This document shows, one piece after another, positions 39,336 to 47,015 of a DNA stretch of 64,000 bases. The position numbers and the translations under genes are program-made. Numbering within the stretch: position 1 is the stretch's first letter; every line of letters starts with the position of its first letter. The notes beneath the pieces were generated by a model that searched no databases, was not told the DNA's origin, and was given only the letters and a program-made list of their open reading frames with translations. The DNA comes from Demequina sp. B12 (GTDB lineage: Bacteria; Actinomycetota; Actinomycetes; Actinomycetales; Demequinaceae), in NCBI RefSeq assembly GCF_028823635.1, contig NZ_JAPEHU010000002.1:1-64000 (forward strand), given 5' to 3'.

Positions 39336-39748
39336 CGGCCTTCCGCTTCCGCCCTTCCGGTAGGGCGCTTCGTAGCAACCGGTGCCACGCAGTTTCCCTC
39401 AGCGCAGTCGGTATCCAGTGACCGTATCCCACGGGGGGCTGTGTGCTTGACCTCCTGGCGTTTCACATGGGGTGAACCTGGGGGGTGATTTCTGGTGGAA
39501 CCCCGGCTTTTGCGGATCTATCAGGTGTTGTACTGCCGTCAGTTCAAGCGTGGCCGCACCGCGTTTGAGCCTCCATTTCCCGCATGCGTGCGCCCCTGGG
39601 AGCGGCGTCACTGTGTGCTGCCTTGAAACGGGTCACATGGCCGATGAGGGGTGCCGGGAGGTGGTGAGCCTCGGGTGGAGGGGGACCCGGGGCTTGACCT
39701 TTGACAGCAAACGACGGTGCCCCCGGCACCGCGCTGAGGGAGATTCAC
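39336..39748. other. 413-bp divergent intergenic region, regulator/adhesin
   Basis: No gene is supported here. TTGACC (39694-39699) and TTGACA (39701-39706) resemble -35 boxes for the adhesin gene but no convincing -10 follows. A short inverted repeat TTCAC-ATGG-GGTGAA occurs near 39461-39475. GAGGGAG near 39736 is the adhesin ribosome site. Confidence 0.4.
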
Positions 39749-42700
39749 ATGACGTCCACGCACACGGCCGTAGGCCGCTGGCGGGAAACTCGTCACCTTG
39801 TTCGTGTGGCCGTGGCGGCCCTGATGGTGGCCGCGTTGTCGGTCCTGGGTTTGCAGGCGGTTCCTGCGCAGGCCGCGACCGCTGGTGTCACGTTGTCCAT
39901 CGAGTACGGGGGCCAGACCTACAACGGCGATGCGCTGGTTGAACCCGGCCAGACGTACACTGCCCGCCTGCAGTACTCGGTGCCGCAGTTAACGCCGGGC
40001 GGTTCGGTGACGGTGCAGGTTCCGGATGGCATCACCGTGCCTGCGGGGGCGCTGACTGTGCCCAGCGGCAACACGATTGTGGAGTCGTTGGCGTTGGATA
40101 GTGACGGCAACGTGGTGTTGACGTTCCAGAACCCTCTTGATGGCACTGTCGATCAGGGCGTGATCGCTTTTGACTTCCAGTTTGACGCCCCGTCGACGGG
40201 CACGGGATATCGCACTGTCACGTGGACGGTGGGGGAACAGACCGTCAGCGTGGATCTCATTGTGCGGGAGCCTGGCGACGAGCTACGCCCCGCGCTGACC
40301 AACACGACTGCGAAGTCTGTGGGCACGCATCGGCTCAACTCTGCGGTGACCCGTGACGCTGCCGGACAGGTGCAGCTCGCTCCTTCAGTGACCACCTTGC
40401 CTGTGCCCTACACGTTGCGGGTGGACAGCGTGGAGGCACGGTCCGGCGTGGATGTGGTCGACACGTTGAGTGACTACCTGCGCTACGACGCCACCACGTT
40501 CTATGGCTCGATCGTGACGTGGGACGCGGATGGCTTCAACAGGACCAGTGCGCCGTTCCCCTTGGGTACTCCTGTGGTGTCGGGTGACTCGGTCACCTTT
40601 GCGAACCTGGATTTGCCTGCGAACTCGCGTCTGTACATCACATACAACGCGTATGTGCGGTCCGAACGTGTCGCTGACCTTCGGGCCGCGCTTCAGGCAG
40701 CGGCCGATGCCATCGACCCTGTCAAGGGAGGCTCTTACACGCAGCCGCTGGCCAATCAGGTCACCGCTGGGGGCGTGAGCGCCCGGGTGCAGACCACCAT
40801 TGGCGGGCGTATCGCGGCAGAGCCCACGCCAAGCCTGAGCTCCGCGTTCCAGAAGCGTTCCAACCTGGCTAGCCAAGTCATGGTGGAAGTGACCGATGCA
40901 GGCGAGCTTTCCGCTCCCGTGGTGGTGAACTACACCTTGCGCGCCAATCTCACTCGGTTCGCGGACTTTGTGGGCACCCGCCACGAGTTGTCCCGCAACG
41001 TCGTCCTCACGGACACGCTGCCGCAAGCCGCCGTGTGGAACCTGGACTCGAGCGCGATCTCCGCAAACGGGTTTGTCCTGACCCCAGCATCGGCCACCTG
41101 TGAAGCCGCTGCGGACTTCAGTGATGACGTGTGCGTGAACCAGTACCGCTTCACTGACGCGGGTCAGACGCTCGAGGTGAACTTTGGGCAGGACGTCACC
41201 GCGAACATGTCCGTCACCGCGGAGGCCGCCTGGCATTCGTTCCAGGGTTTGTCTGCGGACCACGATCCGGACGGTTTGCCTCAGGTGCAGACGCGGTACC
41301 GCATCATCAACGACGGCTACTTCGACTACAGCGACGACAAGAGCCACTACCGCGCACGGCACACACGCTCGCTGCTGGTGCCCAGGCCTCCCGGCAGCGT
41401 CATTGACGACCCCACGGAGTTTGCTAAGACCACGGACGGCTCGTTTGTGTTGCGCCCGGGGGAATCGGCGCACGTGCCCTACACCTTCACCATCGCCAAC
41501 GGTGCGGTGCCGAACCTGAACCAGGCGCGTTTCATCGATGAGGTGGACACCACGGTGTTCGACATCAGCGATCTAGAAGCGATCCGAGCCTCGATCGTGG
41601 GCACCTATGACGGACGTTCGGGCCTGTCGGGGGACGACTTCACTGTGGTCCGCAGCGGTGACTCGTTGGTGTTCACGCTGTCGGACACGTTCGGCTCGGC
41701 AGTGGCTGGCGGCGTTGACCTGGCCGCTCCGGTGACCAAGCGTCTTCAGTACAGCTTTGCGCTACCCACCCATCCCGTAGAAGGCAAGCAGACCGTTCAC
41801 CTCACCAACACGGCGCGTGTCGAAGCCGATGACGTGGAGTCGTACACGTGGGTATCGGAAGCCACTGGTCGGGCATCGACGTATGGCGACGAGCTGGAAG
41901 TAGAGAAGGTTCTGTACTCCGGCCAGGGTGAGTGGACACGCAACCTGCGTGTAGAGCTCACCCCAGATGGATCGCTTGCACAGGACACCTTCATTTACCG
42001 CGTGAACCTGATTCCGCACGGTGACTACTCGGGCGTGCGGATTATCCCGTTGGAGGATGTGATCCCCGAAGGCTTGACCTTTGAGGGGTTTGTCGCTGAT
42101 GGCGACCTCGACGCAGGTACGGTGTCCAGCACCACGACTACTTCCATGGGCGGCAACGTTTCGGCAACCTGGAACGCGGCTGACTCGACCGTTGAGATTG
42201 AGCAAATGCCCGGCACCACACTGCCCGCCGGCGCGTCCGTGGGCGTGAACTTCAAGGTGACTGTCGATGACTTCACCGAGAACGTCCCCGTGGTCAACCG
42301 CATCGGCTCTGCAACAGCCACCATCACGCCTTCCGACGGCTACCCGCTGATGGTGGTGAAGGCTGACTCGGAGCGGCCTGAGGTGCGGATCACGGACCGT
42401 GACGCGCGTTTCACCGTGACCGGCCCTGACAACCAGGTCATCACGGAAGACGCGTTCGTTGTTGACGGCCAGCTCATGGTGGAAGACGCCGCCGGTGCCG
42501 ACAGCGCGATTGTCATTCCGGAAGACCCAGCCATGCCGGGTGGAATCCCCGCAGGGCGTTACGCGATCACGGAGACGGTCGCACCCCAGGGCTACGCACT
42601 CGCGACAGCGCCCGTGTATGCCACGATCACGGATACGGGAACCTCCGCTCCGGTGACGCTGTTCAATGACCCCGTTGAGCCCACGACGACTCCCAGCCAG

Positions 42701-42964
42701 GAGCCCACACCTGAGCCCACTGGAGGCTCCAGTGTGGAGCCCAGCCCGGTTCCAACCGTGGAGCCCACAGTTGTTCCGAGCGTTGATCCGACGCCCGGAC
42801 AGCCGCATGAAACGCAGACTCCTGCACCGGAGTCTGACGGTGATGCGGATCAGGGGGGAACCCAGCTGGCCAGCACCGGTGTGCAGGCCACTGGATTGGT
42901 CCTGGCAAGCACCCTTCTGCTTGCGCTTGGATTTGGGTTGATGGCATTGCGCCGCCGTCACTAG
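39749..42964 (+). CDS. Sortase-anchored (LAxTG) surface adhesin with SpaA-type domain
   Basis: Secreted 1071-residue protein. A signal peptide covers about 1-43 (VAVAALMVAALSVLGLQAVPAQA). Several beta-rich domains with conserved Asn/Asp resemble isopeptide-forming adhesin domains. A SpaA-like prealbumin domain near 870-980 includes AGRYAITETVAPQGYALATA. A Pro/Thr/Glu-rich wall-spanning stretch follows, then LASTG, a hydrophobic helix and RRRH. LAxTG is the class E sortase signal of actinobacteria. The ligand is unknown; the gene is divergent from the LuxR-type regulator. Confidence 0.88.
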   Translation: MTSTHTAVGRWRETRHLVRVAVAALMVAALSVLGLQAVPAQAATAGVTLSIEYGGQTYNGDALVEPGQTYTARLQYSVPQLTPGGSVTVQVPDGITVPAGALTVPSGNTIVESLALDSDGNVVLTFQNPLDGTVDQGVIAFDFQFDAPSTGTGYRTVTWTVGEQTVSVDLIVREPGDELRPALTNTTAKSVGTHRLNSAVTRDAAGQVQLAPSVTTLPVPYTLRVDSVEARSGVDVVDTLSDYLRYDATTFYGSIVTWDADGFNRTSAPFPLGTPVVSGDSVTFANLDLPANSRLYITYNAYVRSERVADLRAALQAAADAIDPVKGGSYTQPLANQVTAGGVSARVQTTIGGRIAAEPTPSLSSAFQKRSNLASQVMVEVTDAGELSAPVVVNYTLRANLTRFADFVGTRHELSRNVVLTDTLPQAAVWNLDSSAISANGFVLTPASATCEAAADFSDDVCVNQYRFTDAGQTLEVNFGQDVTANMSVTAEAAWHSFQGLSADHDPDGLPQVQTRYRIINDGYFDYSDDKSHYRARHTRSLLVPRPPGSVIDDPTEFAKTTDGSFVLRPGESAHVPYTFTIANGAVPNLNQARFIDEVDTTVFDISDLEAIRASIVGTYDGRSGLSGDDFTVVRSGDSLVFTLSDTFGSAVAGGVDLAAPVTKRLQYSFALPTHPVEGKQTVHLTNTARVEADDVESYTWVSEATGRASTYGDELEVEKVLYSGQGEWTRNLRVELTPDGSLAQDTFIYRVNLIPHGDYSGVRIIPLEDVIPEGLTFEGFVADGDLDAGTVSSTTTTSMGGNVSATWNAADSTVEIEQMPGTTLPAGASVGVNFKVTVDDFTENVPVVNRIGSATATITPSDGYPLMVVKADSERPEVRITDRDARFTVTGPDNQVITEDAFVVDGQLMVEDAAGADSAIVIPEDPAMPGGIPAGRYAITETVAPQGYALATAPVYATITDTGTSAPVTLFNDPVEPTTTPSQEPTPEPTGGSSVEPSPVPTVEPTVVPSVDPTPGQPHETQTPAPESDGDADQGGTQLASTGVQATGLVLASTLLLALGFGLMALRRRH

Positions 42965-42980: not shown

Positions 42981-43026
42981 GGACGACCACAGCCACCCTC
43001 CCGGCTGTGGTCGTCCTTGTTTTTTC
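42981..43026 (+). terminator. Rho-independent terminator of the adhesin gene
   Basis: Perfect 14-bp stem 42981-42994 with 43003-43016, an 8-nt loop and TTGTTTTTTC. It cleanly separates the adhesin from the cystine-importer leader region. Confidence 0.92.
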
Positions 43027-43071
43027 TTGACAGTGGGAATAGCGGCGTCGTAGCCGTGGTTAAATCCCTCC

Positions 43072-43164
43072 ATGAGCGTTACCTCGACTAGCACCCTGTC
43101 ACGCCTCCCGCACCGCGGGCTCGGCATGATGTGCTGTCGTGCCGCCATGATGTGTTGTTGCTGA
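43072..43164 (+). CDS. Cysteine-rich leader peptide upstream of cystine importer
   Basis: Thirty-codon ORF whose second half reads GLGMMCCRAAMMCCC then stop: five Cys and four Met codons in twelve. It has no Shine-Dalgarno. TTAAAT (43060-43065), preceded by TGG as an extended -10, ends 6 nt before the ATG, so the peptide is probably leaderless. Polycysteine leaderless ORFs that sense cysteine are described in mycobacteria; here the downstream genes encode a cystine-type importer. It likely stalls ribosomes when Cys-tRNA is scarce. Confidence 0.82.
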   Translation: MSVTSTSTLSRLPHRGLGMMCCRAAMMCCC

Positions 43165-43346
43165 CAACACCGCTCTGCTGAGCGAGCCGCTGAGAAAGCT
43201 CCCCACCTGGCCAGTCCAGGTGCGTGTGTAGCCCTGCGGCACCCCTGGCTCCCGTAGCCGTCCTGGCTCCTACAGCCTCACATGTATGCGCGCCACCCTT
43301 GCGTGGTGAGTGTCCCCATCTGTATCCGTCGTTGTACCCCACCCAA

Positions 43347-43408
43347 GCATCGGCCCGTGTGAGCGTTCTTGTGAACGTTGTGCACTGGTGATCCCAGTGG
43401 GCCGATGC
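43347..43408 (+). promoter_or_regulatory. Predicted three-way RNA junction before the cystine importer
   Basis: Outer stem GCATCGGCCC (43347-43356) with GGGCCGATGC (43399-43408), 10 bp perfect. Inside are hairpin A, AGCGTTC/GAACGTT (43362-43368, 43373-43379, one G-T pair), and hairpin B, ACTGG/CCAGT (43384-43388, 43394-43398). It ends 31 nt before the importer ATG. The outer arms are also copies of the window-wide octamer, so chance pairing is possible. A separate hairpin, CACCTGG/CCAGGTG, occurs near 43206. Confidence 0.5.
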
Positions 43409-43439
43409 GCCCCCTCCCGCCCTACGAAAGGCACCTGAC

Positions 43440-44279
43440 ATGAAGACTCGTTTTGCTCTCCCCGCTGCGCTGGTGGCGTCCGCTCTGGCCCTCACCGCTT
43501 GCTCTGCCGCTGACTCCGACGCGGACCCCACTGCGATCGGCAGCGCCGCCGCTGGTACTGACACGTCGCTGACGGACATTCAGGAGGCGGGTGTCATCGT
43601 GGTCGGCACGGAAGGCACGTACCGTCCGTTCACCTTCCACGCCGATGGCACCGGTGAGTTGACCGGATACGACGTCGAGGTGTCGCGCGCTGTGGCAGCG
43701 GTACTGGGCGTTGAGATCCAGTTCGAGGAGACCCAGTGGGATGCACTGCTGACCGGTCTTGAGGCAGGCCGCTTTGACGCCGTGGCCAACCAGGTGGGCG
43801 TCACTCCTGAACGTGAAGAGGTGTACGAGTTCTCCGCGCCTTACACGTTCTCCAACGGTGTGGTGGTGGTCCGCGATGACTACAACGAGATCAGCTCCTG
43901 GGATGACATCGAAGGCAAGACCCTGGCGCAGTCGCTCACGTCCGCGTTCGGCACTTTGGCGAAGGAGTCTGGCGCCAACATTGAAGCGATCGAAGGCTGG
44001 GCTCAGTCGGTGGAACTGCTCAACCAGGGCCGCGTGGACGCCACCATCAACGACAAGCTCACCTGGCTGGACTACAAGCTCGAAACCGGAGCCGAAGGAC
44101 TGAAGGTTGCGTTGGAAACGGACGAGGGTTCGCGTAGCGCCTTCGCGTTTGCCGGCGGTGACGAAGCACTTGCCCAGGCAGTGACCGATGCCCTGGCTAC
44201 TCTGGAAGCAGACGGCACGCTCGCCGAGCTGTCGCAGCAGTTCTTTGGTGACGACGTTTCTGTGGAGTCTGCTTCCTAA
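43440..44279 (+). CDS. tcyA: Cystine-type ABC transporter substrate-binding lipoprotein
   Basis: Lipoprotein of 279 residues with lipobox LALTACSA (Cys21). The mature part matches the FliY/TcyA cystine-binding group: VVGTEGTYRPFTFHADGTGE then LTGYDVEV, and FDAVANQVGVTPEREEVYEFSAPYT (in parts). That family binds cystine or related sulfur amino acids. GAAAGG precedes the ATG. The stop overlaps the permease start by one base (TAATG). The cysteine-rich leader upstream independently supports a cystine or cysteine substrate. Confidence 0.87.
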   Translation: MKTRFALPAALVASALALTACSAADSDADPTAIGSAAAGTDTSLTDIQEAGVIVVGTEGTYRPFTFHADGTGELTGYDVEVSRAVAAVLGVEIQFEETQWDALLTGLEAGRFDAVANQVGVTPEREEVYEFSAPYTFSNGVVVVRDDYNEISSWDDIEGKTLAQSLTSAFGTLAKESGANIEAIEGWAQSVELLNQGRVDATINDKLTWLDYKLETGAEGLKVALETDEGSRSAFAFAGGDEALAQAVTDALATLEADGTLAELSQQFFGDDVSVESAS

Positions 44280-44947
44280 TGGACATTGACTGGTCCCTGT
44301 TCTGGGATTCCCTAGGACCCCTGGCGCTAGCAGCGGTTGCTGGCACCATTCCGCTTGCGCTGGCATCGTTCGCGCTGGGCATGGTGTTGGCGGTGGGAGC
44401 GGCGCTCGCGCGCCTGTCCCGCAACCGTCTAGTGTCTGCGCTGGCGCGGCTGTACATTTCCGTGATTCGCGGAACGCCGCTGCTGGTGCAGTTGTTTGTG
44501 GTGTTCTATGGACTGCCGTCATTGGGACTGGTCATTGATCCCTGGCCCAGCGCCATCATTGCTCTGTCGCTCAACGTGGGTGGTTACGCCGCGGAAGTGG
44601 TGCGAGCCGCCATCTTGTCCGTTGACAAGGGCCAATGGGAAGCGGCCTACATGGTGGGGATGTCACGACGCACGGCCCTGAGGCGGGTCATCCTGCCTCA
44701 GGCCGCGCGTGTGGCAGTCCCGCCGCTGTCCAACACCTTCATTTCTTTGGTGAAAGACACCTCGTTGACGTCGCTGATTCTGGTCAGCGAAATGTTCCGC
44801 AAAGCCCAAGAGATCGCGGCCTTCACTCAGGAGTTCATGCTCCTGTACATCGAGGCCGGCATTGTGTACTGGGTGATCTGCCTGGCGCTCTCGTCCGGTC
44901 AGTTGCGGATTGAAAGGAGGCTGGAACGCCATGTCGCAGTTGCCTGA
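44279..44947 (+). CDS. tcyB: Cystine-type ABC transporter permease
   Basis: Polar-amino-acid permease of 222 residues (HisM/TcyB-like), with about five membrane helices. It has the coupling (EAA) loop WEAAYMVGMSRRTALRRVIL followed by PQAARVAVPPLSNTFISLVKDTSL. It forms the membrane channel with the neighbouring ATPase. Translation is coupled to the binding-protein gene; the 3' end overlaps the ATPase start by 17 bp. Confidence 0.9.
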   Translation: MDIDWSLFWDSLGPLALAAVAGTIPLALASFALGMVLAVGAALARLSRNRLVSALARLYISVIRGTPLLVQLFVVFYGLPSLGLVIDPWPSAIIALSLNVGGYAAEVVRAAILSVDKGQWEAAYMVGMSRRTALRRVILPQAARVAVPPLSNTFISLVKDTSLTSLILVSEMFRKAQEIAAFTQEFMLLYIEAGIVYWVICLALSSGQLRIERRLERHVAVA

Positions 44948-45740
44948 TCAGCCCGTCACTGGCGGCGCGCCGTTGCTATCTGTCGCTGGAGTTTCCAAGG
45001 CCTTTGGTGACAACCAGGTGCTTCAGTCCGTTGACTTGACCGTTGAACGCGGTGAAGTGGTCGCCATCATTGGCGCCTCCGGCTCCGGCAAAACCACGCT
45101 GCTGCGCTGCCTCAACGGACTAGAGACGCCCGATGCCGGAGTAGTGCGGGTAGGCGACGTGTCCGTGGACTTTGGGGCCGGGTTTGCTGGACGTGGGGGA
45201 GCGAAGGCGCTGGAGCGGGCACGTGGCACCCTGCGCGACCAGTCCGCCATGGTGTTCCAGCACTACAACCTGTTCCCTCACCGCACCGTCATTGAGAACG
45301 TGGTCGAAGGCCCCGTGGTGGTGCAGGGGCGGGCGCGGGAGGACGCGTTAGAAGATGCCCGCGCCCTGTTGGAGCGCGTGGGGCTTGGCGACAAGGCCGA
45401 TGCCTATCCTCACCAGCTTTCCGGCGGCCAGCAGCAGCGCGTAGGCATTGTGCGCGCGCTGGCGTTGAAGCCTGAACTGCTGCTGTTCGACGAGCCCACG
45501 TCAGCGTTGGACCCCGAGCTCGTGGGCGACGTGCTGCTGCTTATGCGCGACCTGGCCGCCGAGGGCTGGACCATGGTGGTAGTCACCCACGAACTGCAGT
45601 TCGCCCGCGAGGTGGCTTCCAAGGTGGCGTTCGTGGACTCCGGCGCTGTGCTGGAAATGGGGCCGCCCGCCCAGGTGCTGGGCGCTCCCCAGGAAGAGCG
45701 GACCCAACAGTTTGTGCGGCGGCTGACGCATCCGTTGTAG
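44931..45740 (+). CDS. tcyC: Cystine-type ABC transporter ATP-binding protein
   Basis: ATPase of 269 residues (GlnQ/TcyC-like). Walker A is IGASGSGKTTLLRCLNGLE, the Q-loop region MVFQHYNLFPHRTVIENV, the signature LSGGQQQRVGIVRAL, and Walker B LLLFDEPTSALDPEL, with the H-loop in VVTHEL. ATG 44931 follows AAAGGAGG. It completes a three-gene importer operon with the binding protein and permease. Confidence 0.92.
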   Translation: MSQLPDQPVTGGAPLLSVAGVSKAFGDNQVLQSVDLTVERGEVVAIIGASGSGKTTLLRCLNGLETPDAGVVRVGDVSVDFGAGFAGRGGAKALERARGTLRDQSAMVFQHYNLFPHRTVIENVVEGPVVVQGRAREDALEDARALLERVGLGDKADAYPHQLSGGQQQRVGIVRALALKPELLLFDEPTSALDPELVGDVLLLMRDLAAEGWTMVVVTHELQFAREVASKVAFVDSGAVLEMGPPAQVLGAPQEERTQQFVRRLTHPL

Positions 45741-46229: not shown

Positions 46230-46265
46230 GGGTGAAGGCCGCATGGGCCGTGAGGGGGAGTGTCC

Positions 46266-47015
46266 GTGGATCTGTCGATAGGTCAGGTTGCCAAGCGCAC
46301 GGGGGTCTCGGCGCGCATGTTGCGCCACTACGACCATCTGGGGCTGTTCCCACCTTCCCGAGTCAGCGACAACGGATACCGCTGGTACGGGGTGGAAATG
46401 CTGCCGCGTCTCTACCGCATCGTCTCCCTGCGCCGGGCTGGTGTGGGCCTTGGTGAGATTGCTCGCATCCTTGACGAGCACACCAGTGAAGCCGATGCGC
46501 TGCGTCAGCACCTTGCCGAGGTGAGAGCGGAGCAGGCGCGTTTGGAGGTGTTGGCGGCGTCGATTGAGGAGCAGATTGCGCGGTTGGATGGGGCGCGAGT
46601 GGAAGACCCGGAGGCGTTGCGAGGTGAGTATCGCCGCGAGTTTGCCCAGCTGGTTGACCGTTTGAAGATCCAGTACCCAGCGGGGCTGGTGGAGTCCTAC
46701 GCGGCCTATGCGCGTGGAATGGAATCCATGTCTGTGGCCGACATTGAGCACGTGGTGGCGGCCTCTGCGGAGGTGATGAGTCGACTCGCGGAGATGGCGA
46801 GGCGAGGTGTGTCCGTGGACTCTGACGAGGCCCAGCGCGGTGTGGCCGACCACTACGCATTGCTTACTCAGTCGGTGCCGCTGTCCGTTGACGCCTACGG
46901 CGCGTTAGGGCGGTCGTATGTGGACGATCCACTGCAGCATTCGATTGTGGTGTCTTTTGGAGGCGAGTTGCCCGAGTGGCTGCGGCAGGCGATCGAGGTG
47001 TTCGCTGGACGGTAG
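46266..47015 (+). CDS. MerR-family regulator with TipAS-like C-terminal domain
   Basis: Regulator of 249 residues. The N-terminal MerR domain is SIGQVAKRTGVSARMLRHYDHLGLFPPSRVSDNGYRWYG (read in parts), followed by a coiled coil (about 75-115). The C-terminal ~135 residues share the GVSVDSDEAQRGVADHY and GRSYVDDPLQHS pattern of TipAS-like binding domains. I start at GTG 46266, with GAGGGGG 7 nt upstream; GTG 46260 is too close to that site. The ligand is unknown. Confidence 0.85.
   Translation: MDLSIGQVAKRTGVSARMLRHYDHLGLFPPSRVSDNGYRWYGVEMLPRLYRIVSLRRAGVGLGEIARILDEHTSEADALRQHLAEVRAEQARLEVLAASIEEQIARLDGARVEDPEALRGEYRREFAQLVDRLKIQYPAGLVESYAAYARGMESMSVADIEHVVAASAEVMSRLAEMARRGVSVDSDEAQRGVADHYALLTQSVPLSVDAYGALGRSYVDDPLQHSIVVSFGGELPEWLRQAIEVFAGR

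Follow-up and report, generated by a model that had tools for sequence, protein, structure and literature searches.

A putative cysteine-responsive leader attenuator before a cystine-type import operon of Demequina, with a probable SigR-type promoter in one clade

The importer operon and its leader ORF

The window, i.e. the whole stretch of DNA analysed here, comprises the first 64,000 nt of contig NZ_JAPEHU010000002.1 of Demequina sp. B12. A short Cys-rich ORF in this window lies between the terminator of a surface-protein gene and three genes for an ABC importer, with the following features:

42981-43016, + strand: intrinsic terminator, a 14-bp stem followed by TTGTTTTTTC, 3' of the upstream surface-protein gene
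43072-43164, + strand: leader ORF of 30 codons, predicted to be leaderless, MSVTSTSTLSRLPHRGLGMMCCRAAMMCCC followed by a stop codon
43132-43137, + strand: first Cys cluster (codons 21-22), at the conserved (C/S)C(R/G/C) site
43153-43161, + strand: terminal Cys cluster (codons 28-30), adjoining the stop codon
43165-43439, + strand: untranslated spacer with C over G, structured in most relatives and without a U-tract; candidate Rho-loading region
43427-43431, + strand: AAAGG, Shine-Dalgarno sequence of the importer's first gene
43440-44279, + strand: cystine-type substrate-binding lipoprotein (SBP_bac_3, PF00497; PRK11260 at E 2.7e-49, below its cut-off)
44279-44947, + strand: ABC permease (PF00528; PRK15100 at E 2.8e-74, below its cut-off)
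44931-45740, + strand: ABC ATPase (PF00005; TcyN model at E 6.8e-97, below its cut-off)

The ORF itself is as the preliminary description had it: the sequence confirms 30 codons, a Cys-rich end (its last twelve codons read MMCCRAAMMCCC) and the absence of a purine-rich Shine-Dalgarno sequence before the ATG at 43072. Between its stop codon and the first gene of the importer lie 275 untranslated nt. The strong terminator at 42981-43016 separates the leader transcript from the upstream surface-protein gene (39701-42964), which encodes a large protein with an SpaA prealbumin-like domain, a C-terminal LASTG, a hydrophobic segment and a basic tail; from these features the protein is likely sortase-anchored.

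The three genes had been called tcyABC-like, which holds in the sense that cystine-transport models were the best NCBIfam match for all three proteins and cystine ABC proteins are thus their nearest relatives there, although none of the three reached the curated equivalog cut-offs of these models. The closest solved structure to the binding protein is 2yln/3zsf (E 1.1e-63; next best 4.2e-37), listed only as 'amino-acid binding protein', which we take to be the gonococcal L-cystine receptor. Downstream of the operon, at 46260-47015, is a MerR-type regulator with a TipAS domain.

Conservation of the leader and the signal it may sense

A search of the genus placed the importer's first gene in 14 of 44 Demequina genomes, at 15 loci, with two loci in one genome (G039) and a fragmented copy in another (G011). 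An intact Cys-rich short ORF was present at 14 of these loci, its stop codon 163-275 nt 5' of the importer gene, while at the fifteenth (L017, from the 50%-complete genome G011) leader and gene were both frameshifted; this locus was excluded from the alignments and from the promoter count below. Conservation of Cys codons before orthologous importers, which the preliminary description had named as decisive for its proposal, was therefore found, and a predicted leaderless Cys leader of the mycobacterial type before a cystine-type importer is supported. Across the 14 aligned leaders (C/S)C(R/G/C) is kept at codons 18-23, the last twelve codons hold two to five Cys in every case, and the last or penultimate residue is Cys in 12, while the N-terminal half is variable. 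The window's leader alone among those compared has five Cys in its last twelve codons; that of L014 is short (22 aa) and that of L016 the most divergent.

Overlapping ORFs are abundant in this GC-rich DNA, and the leader could in principle be a chance ORF within an ordinary 5' untranslated region. Shuffled sequences speak against this: ATG-initiated ORFs 15-40 codons long that carry (C/S)C(R/G/C/M) within the last twelve codons occurred in 15/15 real 400-nt upstream regions vs 1.5% of 1500 dinucleotide shuffles. Asking instead for at least two Cys in the last twelve codons was less telling (15/15 vs 10% of shuffles), and at least five were found in 1/15 real regions vs 0/1500 shuffles. The Cys leader is moreover conserved at 15 loci and in further genera while the spacer diverges, and this comparison of sequences already refutes the chance-ORF reading, to which we give a negligible probability.

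A leader sequence model built from the 14 intact Demequina leaders and run over the 44 genomes recovered the 15 loci at E 8.8e-7 or better, the next match scoring 22.5 bits (E 3e-4); among the matches listed, weak ones occurred from 22.5 bits down, in all genomes. Since the 14 training leaders match by construction, the informative parts are this score gap and the match in G011, which lay outside the model. The codon UGU accounts for 34 of 51 leader Cys codons vs 45 of 133 in ORFs of the window (Fisher p 1e-4), with the caveat that the leaders are related and not independent.

The same genome carries a second polycysteine leader, upstream of cysK:

-273 to -165 relative to cysK (locus L249; G000:C30, about 273151-273258): SD-led leader MSNAPRTDATFAPASTMCTCAPCLCCCMCAEGCCL, with Cys at 9 of 35 residues

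It is regarded as SD-led because GGAGGG precedes it. While cysK is found in 43/44 genomes of the genus, 30 cysK loci were examined, and a counterpart leader with five to nine Cys was present at all 30, ending in CCL at 26. Given that two cysteine operons carry different Cys leaders, cysteine is, on sequence grounds, likely the signal sensed.

Outside the genus, the importer's first gene was found order-wide in 98 of 396 genomes, ten of them Demequina. A strict leader filter (18-36 residues with a stop codon, CC near the end) was applied to the best 80 named loci. Among these it retained a leader at 12/18 loci of Cellulomonas, Actinotalea, an uncultured Cellulomonadaceae bacterium and Flavimobilis (11/17 for Cellulomonadaceae, plus Flavimobilis, placed by NCBI in Jonesiaceae), vs 1/56 loci of other genera, with shuffles at 1.1-2.0%. 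It also retained five of six Demequina loci, the sixth (L144, the same locus as L016) failing only because it has no adjacent Cys. With a looser filter, 23 of the best 80 named loci had a leader. Scanning 80 of the other 88 order-wide loci gave a patchy picture, with only scattered candidate leaders (e.g. G341/G316, G396/G380 and G051/G386).

These leaders also bear on a proposal of the preliminary description, that the Met pairs beside the Cys codons could let the leader respond to Met-tRNA as well and act as a dual sensor. There are two to four Met in the last twelve codons of all seven leaders of the window's clade (clade A, defined below), and several cysK leaders likewise have Met beside Cys. 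Against this, the 14 Demequina leaders have one to five internal Met, but there are none in 10 of the 12 from Cellulomonas and relatives, in the last twelve codons of 4/7 clade-B leaders or in a group of cysK leaders (e.g. L266-L268), and the importer is of the cystine type. Cys, by comparison, numbers at least two in all 26 leaders (14 of Demequina and 12 of Cellulomonas and relatives), some of which hold just two. In the folds of L005 and L006, ATG codons lie within CATGCC/GGCATG arms before the first Cys cluster, whereas L007 has CTCGCC/GGCGAG in their place, having lost one Met on both sides at once, so that the Met codons change along with their pairing partners. The Met codons are thus better explained by predicted pairing than by sensing, although the Met richness of clade A near the Cys codons remains unexplained in detail by pairing. 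Simple comparison removes the proposed methionine sensor, which is left unsupported and which we consider improbable.

Cys, Met and His are Cu(I) ligands, and the Demequina leaders are Met-rich, so that a peptide binding copper or another thiophilic metal might make this a metal-responsive leader. We hold this to be the more improbable still of the two, as the conserved Cys, no more than about ten codons from the stop, would not yet have left the exit tunnel, the Cys spacing is variable, Met is missing from most leaders of the Cellulomonas relatives, and both the operon and the second leader concern cysteine functions.

Promoters and a probable thiol-stress link

Upstream of the leader ORF, two conserved boxes were recognised:

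43035-43040, + strand: GGGAAT, -35 box of a SigR/SigH-type promoter; GGAAT kept in 7/7 clade-A loci, N18/19 from GTT
43059-43061, + strand: GTT, -10 box, 10 nt before the ATG in 7/7 clade-A loci and overlapped by TTAAAT at 43060-43065

The -10 box previously placed 6 nt before the ATG is present as TTAAAT (followed by the six nucleotides CCCTCC and then the ATG), but this account is incomplete, the promoter of the clade being GGGAAT-N18-GTT, probably of the ECF (SigR/SigH) type. TTGACA at 43027-43032, with which the interval first described begins, was considered as a -35 box and rejected: it is not conserved, and at a distance of 27 nt from TTAAAT it has no partner; GGGAAT is the upstream box that is kept. 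Clade A, supported at 100/99 in the binding-protein tree, has GGAAT-N18/19-GTT-N10-ATG at 7/7 aligned loci, all seven of them without TANNNT. In the sister group, clade B, TANNNT stands exactly 7 nt before the ATG at 6/7 loci, without GGAAT-GTT; at L014 neither promoter type was found. In the excluded locus L017, GGAAT-N19-GTT is visible. The spacer between the promoter boxes drifts, with 0/13 columns invariant across L004-L007.

The boxes agree with the SigH promoter consensus of Corynebacterium, GGAAT-N18-19-GTT, or more fully gGGAAta and t/cGTTgaa, as given in the relevant part of PMC10012870. The genome has a matching sigma factor and anti-sigma factor, SigH_actino (TIGR02947) at 317.6 bits (cut-off 251.55) and RsrA (TIGR03988) at 75.1 bits (cut-off 62.5), sigR being located at 495-1193 of L138 with rsrA next at 1195-1434. 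GGGAAT-N18-GTT also occurs at sigR, 9 nt 5' of an in-frame ATG located 24 codons ahead of the gene's next ATG. Use of this upstream ATG would lengthen SigR by 24 codons, resembling the long SigR' isoform named for Streptomyces in the portion of PMC4921905 consulted.

The pattern GGGAAT-N18/19-GTT has 31 copies in the genome vs three for a reversed control. Some copies lie 0-58 nt 5' of the starts predicted for six redox-type genes, which encode an Ohr peroxiredoxin, a Dps-like ferritin, a CoA-disulfide-reductase-like enzyme, a NamA-like old yellow enzyme, an LLM oxidoreductase and a CoA-binding protein. Among the 30 sites inspected, 19 are inside a same-strand ORF of at least 180 aa, and two of the redox-gene sites (L047 and L049) lie across an opposite-strand ORF of at least 180 aa.

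GTT is preceded by G in the importer promoter (GTGGTTAAAT) and by C at all seven sites found upstream of sigR and these six genes. In addition, a TGTGGT box that fits neither TANNNT nor GGAAT-GTT occurs about 10-12 nt before the start codon at L142, L143, L147, L149, L159, L169, L205 and L206, and such a box without GGAAT is common to loci of Cellulomonas relatives and L014. For these two reasons another factor may read the importer -10 element; the attenuator would then be as proposed below, with the GGAAT-GTT match belonging to a promoter of a sigma factor other than SigR. The GTGGTT context shared with the TGTGGT box, and CGTT at the genome's other candidate SigR sites, favour this alternative, while GGAAT with N18/19 to GTT, kept at 7/7 loci despite the drifting spacer and in the absence of TANNNT, argues against it. 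We judge it unlikely, though well short of negligible, and consider it likely from the sequence, if not certain, that SigR targets the clade-A importer leader.

RNA folding, the downstream step and the proposed mechanism

Two hairpins were predicted in the leader RNA:

43090-43135, + strand: hairpin inside the leader ORF, tentative (MFE fold), its 3' arm reaching the first Cys cluster
43347-43408, + strand: predicted hairpin GCATCGGCCC...GGGCCGATGC, just upstream of the ribosome-binding site

The outer arms of the second, GCATCGG/CCGATGC, are kept in four of four loci (L004-L007). A single consensus structure for all 14 leaders was rejected: RNAalifold found just eight pairs, with a covariation term of +0.23 that brings no gain, because the pairing register moves between groups; it is for want of a common consensus that the hairpin at 43090-43135 is termed tentative. 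Mean fold z-scores were -1.0 for the leader ORF (p 6e-4) and -1.6 for the spacer (p 1.5e-5) vs -0.07 for coding controls, the sequences being related and not independent. C exceeds G in 14/14 spacers (mean difference 0.16 vs a window spread of 0.074), while the C-over-G bias of the window's own 200 nt behind the leader reaches no more than the 5% level within the window.

No intrinsic terminator was found in the window between leader and importer gene, no run of more than three T occurred behind the leader at any of the 14 loci (the longest being 2-3), and no Rfam match reached the gathering score within the window. Classical transcription attenuation was accordingly rejected, there being no terminator with a U-tract between leader and gene. 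Two ways of coupling translation of the leader to expression of the importer were then weighed. The first is Rho-type termination in the C-rich spacer, which we put forward tentatively and with a little less than even confidence from the present analysis, and against which it must be said that the spacer, though C-rich, is well folded (mean z -1.6).

The second is translational attenuation as in M. smegmatis, where the ribosome-binding site is buried by RNA between leader and gene until a ribosome stalls at the Cys codons and exposes it, a mechanism cited for mycobacterial Cys leaders in the accessible parts of PMC13236596 and PMC9031893. The greater structure of leader and spacer relative to coding controls would fit, and masking a ribosome raised the predicted access in L005 (from 0.52 to 0.65-0.67) and L014 (from 0.38 to 0.58-0.65). 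Over all 14 loci, however, masking barely altered the mean predicted access of Shine-Dalgarno and start (0.45, 0.48 and 0.48 with the ribosome at the first Cys, the last Cys and the stop vs 0.45 free, equilibrium folding being a weak test), and the main predicted partner of the Shine-Dalgarno sequence was no further than 45 nt from the gene start at 13/14 loci. Anti-SD pairing was set aside, as no common complement was seen in the compared leaders and constrained folds gave no release on average; L011 has a 7-base complement of its own SD region (GCCTTTC) and L007 a shorter one only. We regard release of the ribosome-binding site as the less likely of the two and lean towards Rho-type termination, the weakest step of the model.

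Taken as a whole, we assign a probability of roughly 0.7 to the reading of this locus as a cysteine-responsive leader attenuator of a cystine-import operon with a SigR-type promoter, a reading favoured by the fixed spacing of promoter and ATG in both promoter types (10 nt in 7/7, 7 nt in 6/7). From the promoter spacing, transcription would start at the ATG or within one base of it, so that the mRNA would begin with the leader ORF and a ribosome could initiate on it directly at the 5' end. With Cys-tRNA plentiful, the ribosome would pass both Cys clusters and leave at the stop codon; the C-rich untranslated RNA would then be exposed, transcription would end prematurely, Rho being the most likely agent, and the importer would be made in small amounts only. 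With Cys-tRNA short, the ribosome would be expected to stall on the conserved Cys codons at or near the stop, where it might shield the C-rich RNA or alter its folding, and polymerase would reach the importer genes.

Given a clade-A promoter of the SigR/SigH type, transcripts of the operon would be expected chiefly during thiol-oxidative stress, so that thiol stress would open transcription and cysteine shortage would let it through. More speculatively, and with slightly less than even confidence, the locus may be a two-input gate in which an ECF thiol-stress sigma factor controls the leaderless mRNA and stalling at Cys codons controls its extension into the importer. With a housekeeping-type promoter in the sister species, one clade would have rewired the attenuator into the disulfide-stress response, beside the genus-widespread cysK leader.

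Polycysteine leaderless short ORFs of mycobacteria are reportedly the subject of work by Canestrari et al. in 2020 (Mol. Microbiol. 114:93). The Demequina leader resembles these ORFs in being short, predicted at the 5' end, without a Shine-Dalgarno sequence, with Cys clustered near the stop, and before a cysteine-related operon. It differs in that the leaders of Demequinaceae, Cellulomonadaceae and Flavimobilis precede a cystine importer, that the Demequina Cys fall into two short clusters with a SigR-type promoter in one clade, and that the predicted sequestration of the ribosome-binding site was not found at most loci here. Polycysteine leaderless short ORFs in mycobacteria are described in the consulted part of Shell et al. 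2015 (PMC4633059), and Seliverstov et al. 2005 (PMC1262725) predicted Cys leader peptides ahead of the cys operons in Mycobacterium and P. acnes and of cbs in B. longum; in the sections of the latter seen here no terminator was found, Rho was suggested and the prediction was termed weak. As in those leaders, Cys runs adjoin the stop here and there is no terminator, and the cysK leader is of that kind; unlike them, the present leader precedes a cystine importer, and those sections name neither this importer nor Demequina or Cellulomonas.

The likeness to the SigR/SigH regulons of Streptomyces, Corynebacterium and Mycobacterium comprises GGAAT-N18-19-GTT, the sigR-rsrA pair and antioxidant-type targets; here, unlike there, the box precedes a predicted leaderless Cys leader and reads GGTT, not CGTT. 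In the literature surveyed (mostly without subscription papers), no Cys leader was seen as a SigR/SigH target, and none was described from these families, upstream of a cystine importer or downstream of a SigR-type promoter. Sensing of this kind has precedents in mycobacteria, while the combination of a Cys leader and a thiol-stress promoter before a cystine importer looks new. These data suggest that cysteine-responsive leader peptides are widespread in Actinomycetota and not solely a mycobacterial device. The occurrence of the same device under two promoter types in sister clades offers a way to ask how the supply of charged tRNA and the oxidation state of the amino acid (through SigR) are combined.

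A minor observation concerns two words over-represented in the window, GCATCGGC and GCCGATGC, with 33 and 27 copies vs five and three for their reversed forms. For the former, a special regulatory role was rejected: it recurs throughout the window, mostly unpaired and also inside genes, and its abundance probably reflects codon usage (GCC GAT GC), so that only its hairpin arrangement in L004-L007 is retained.
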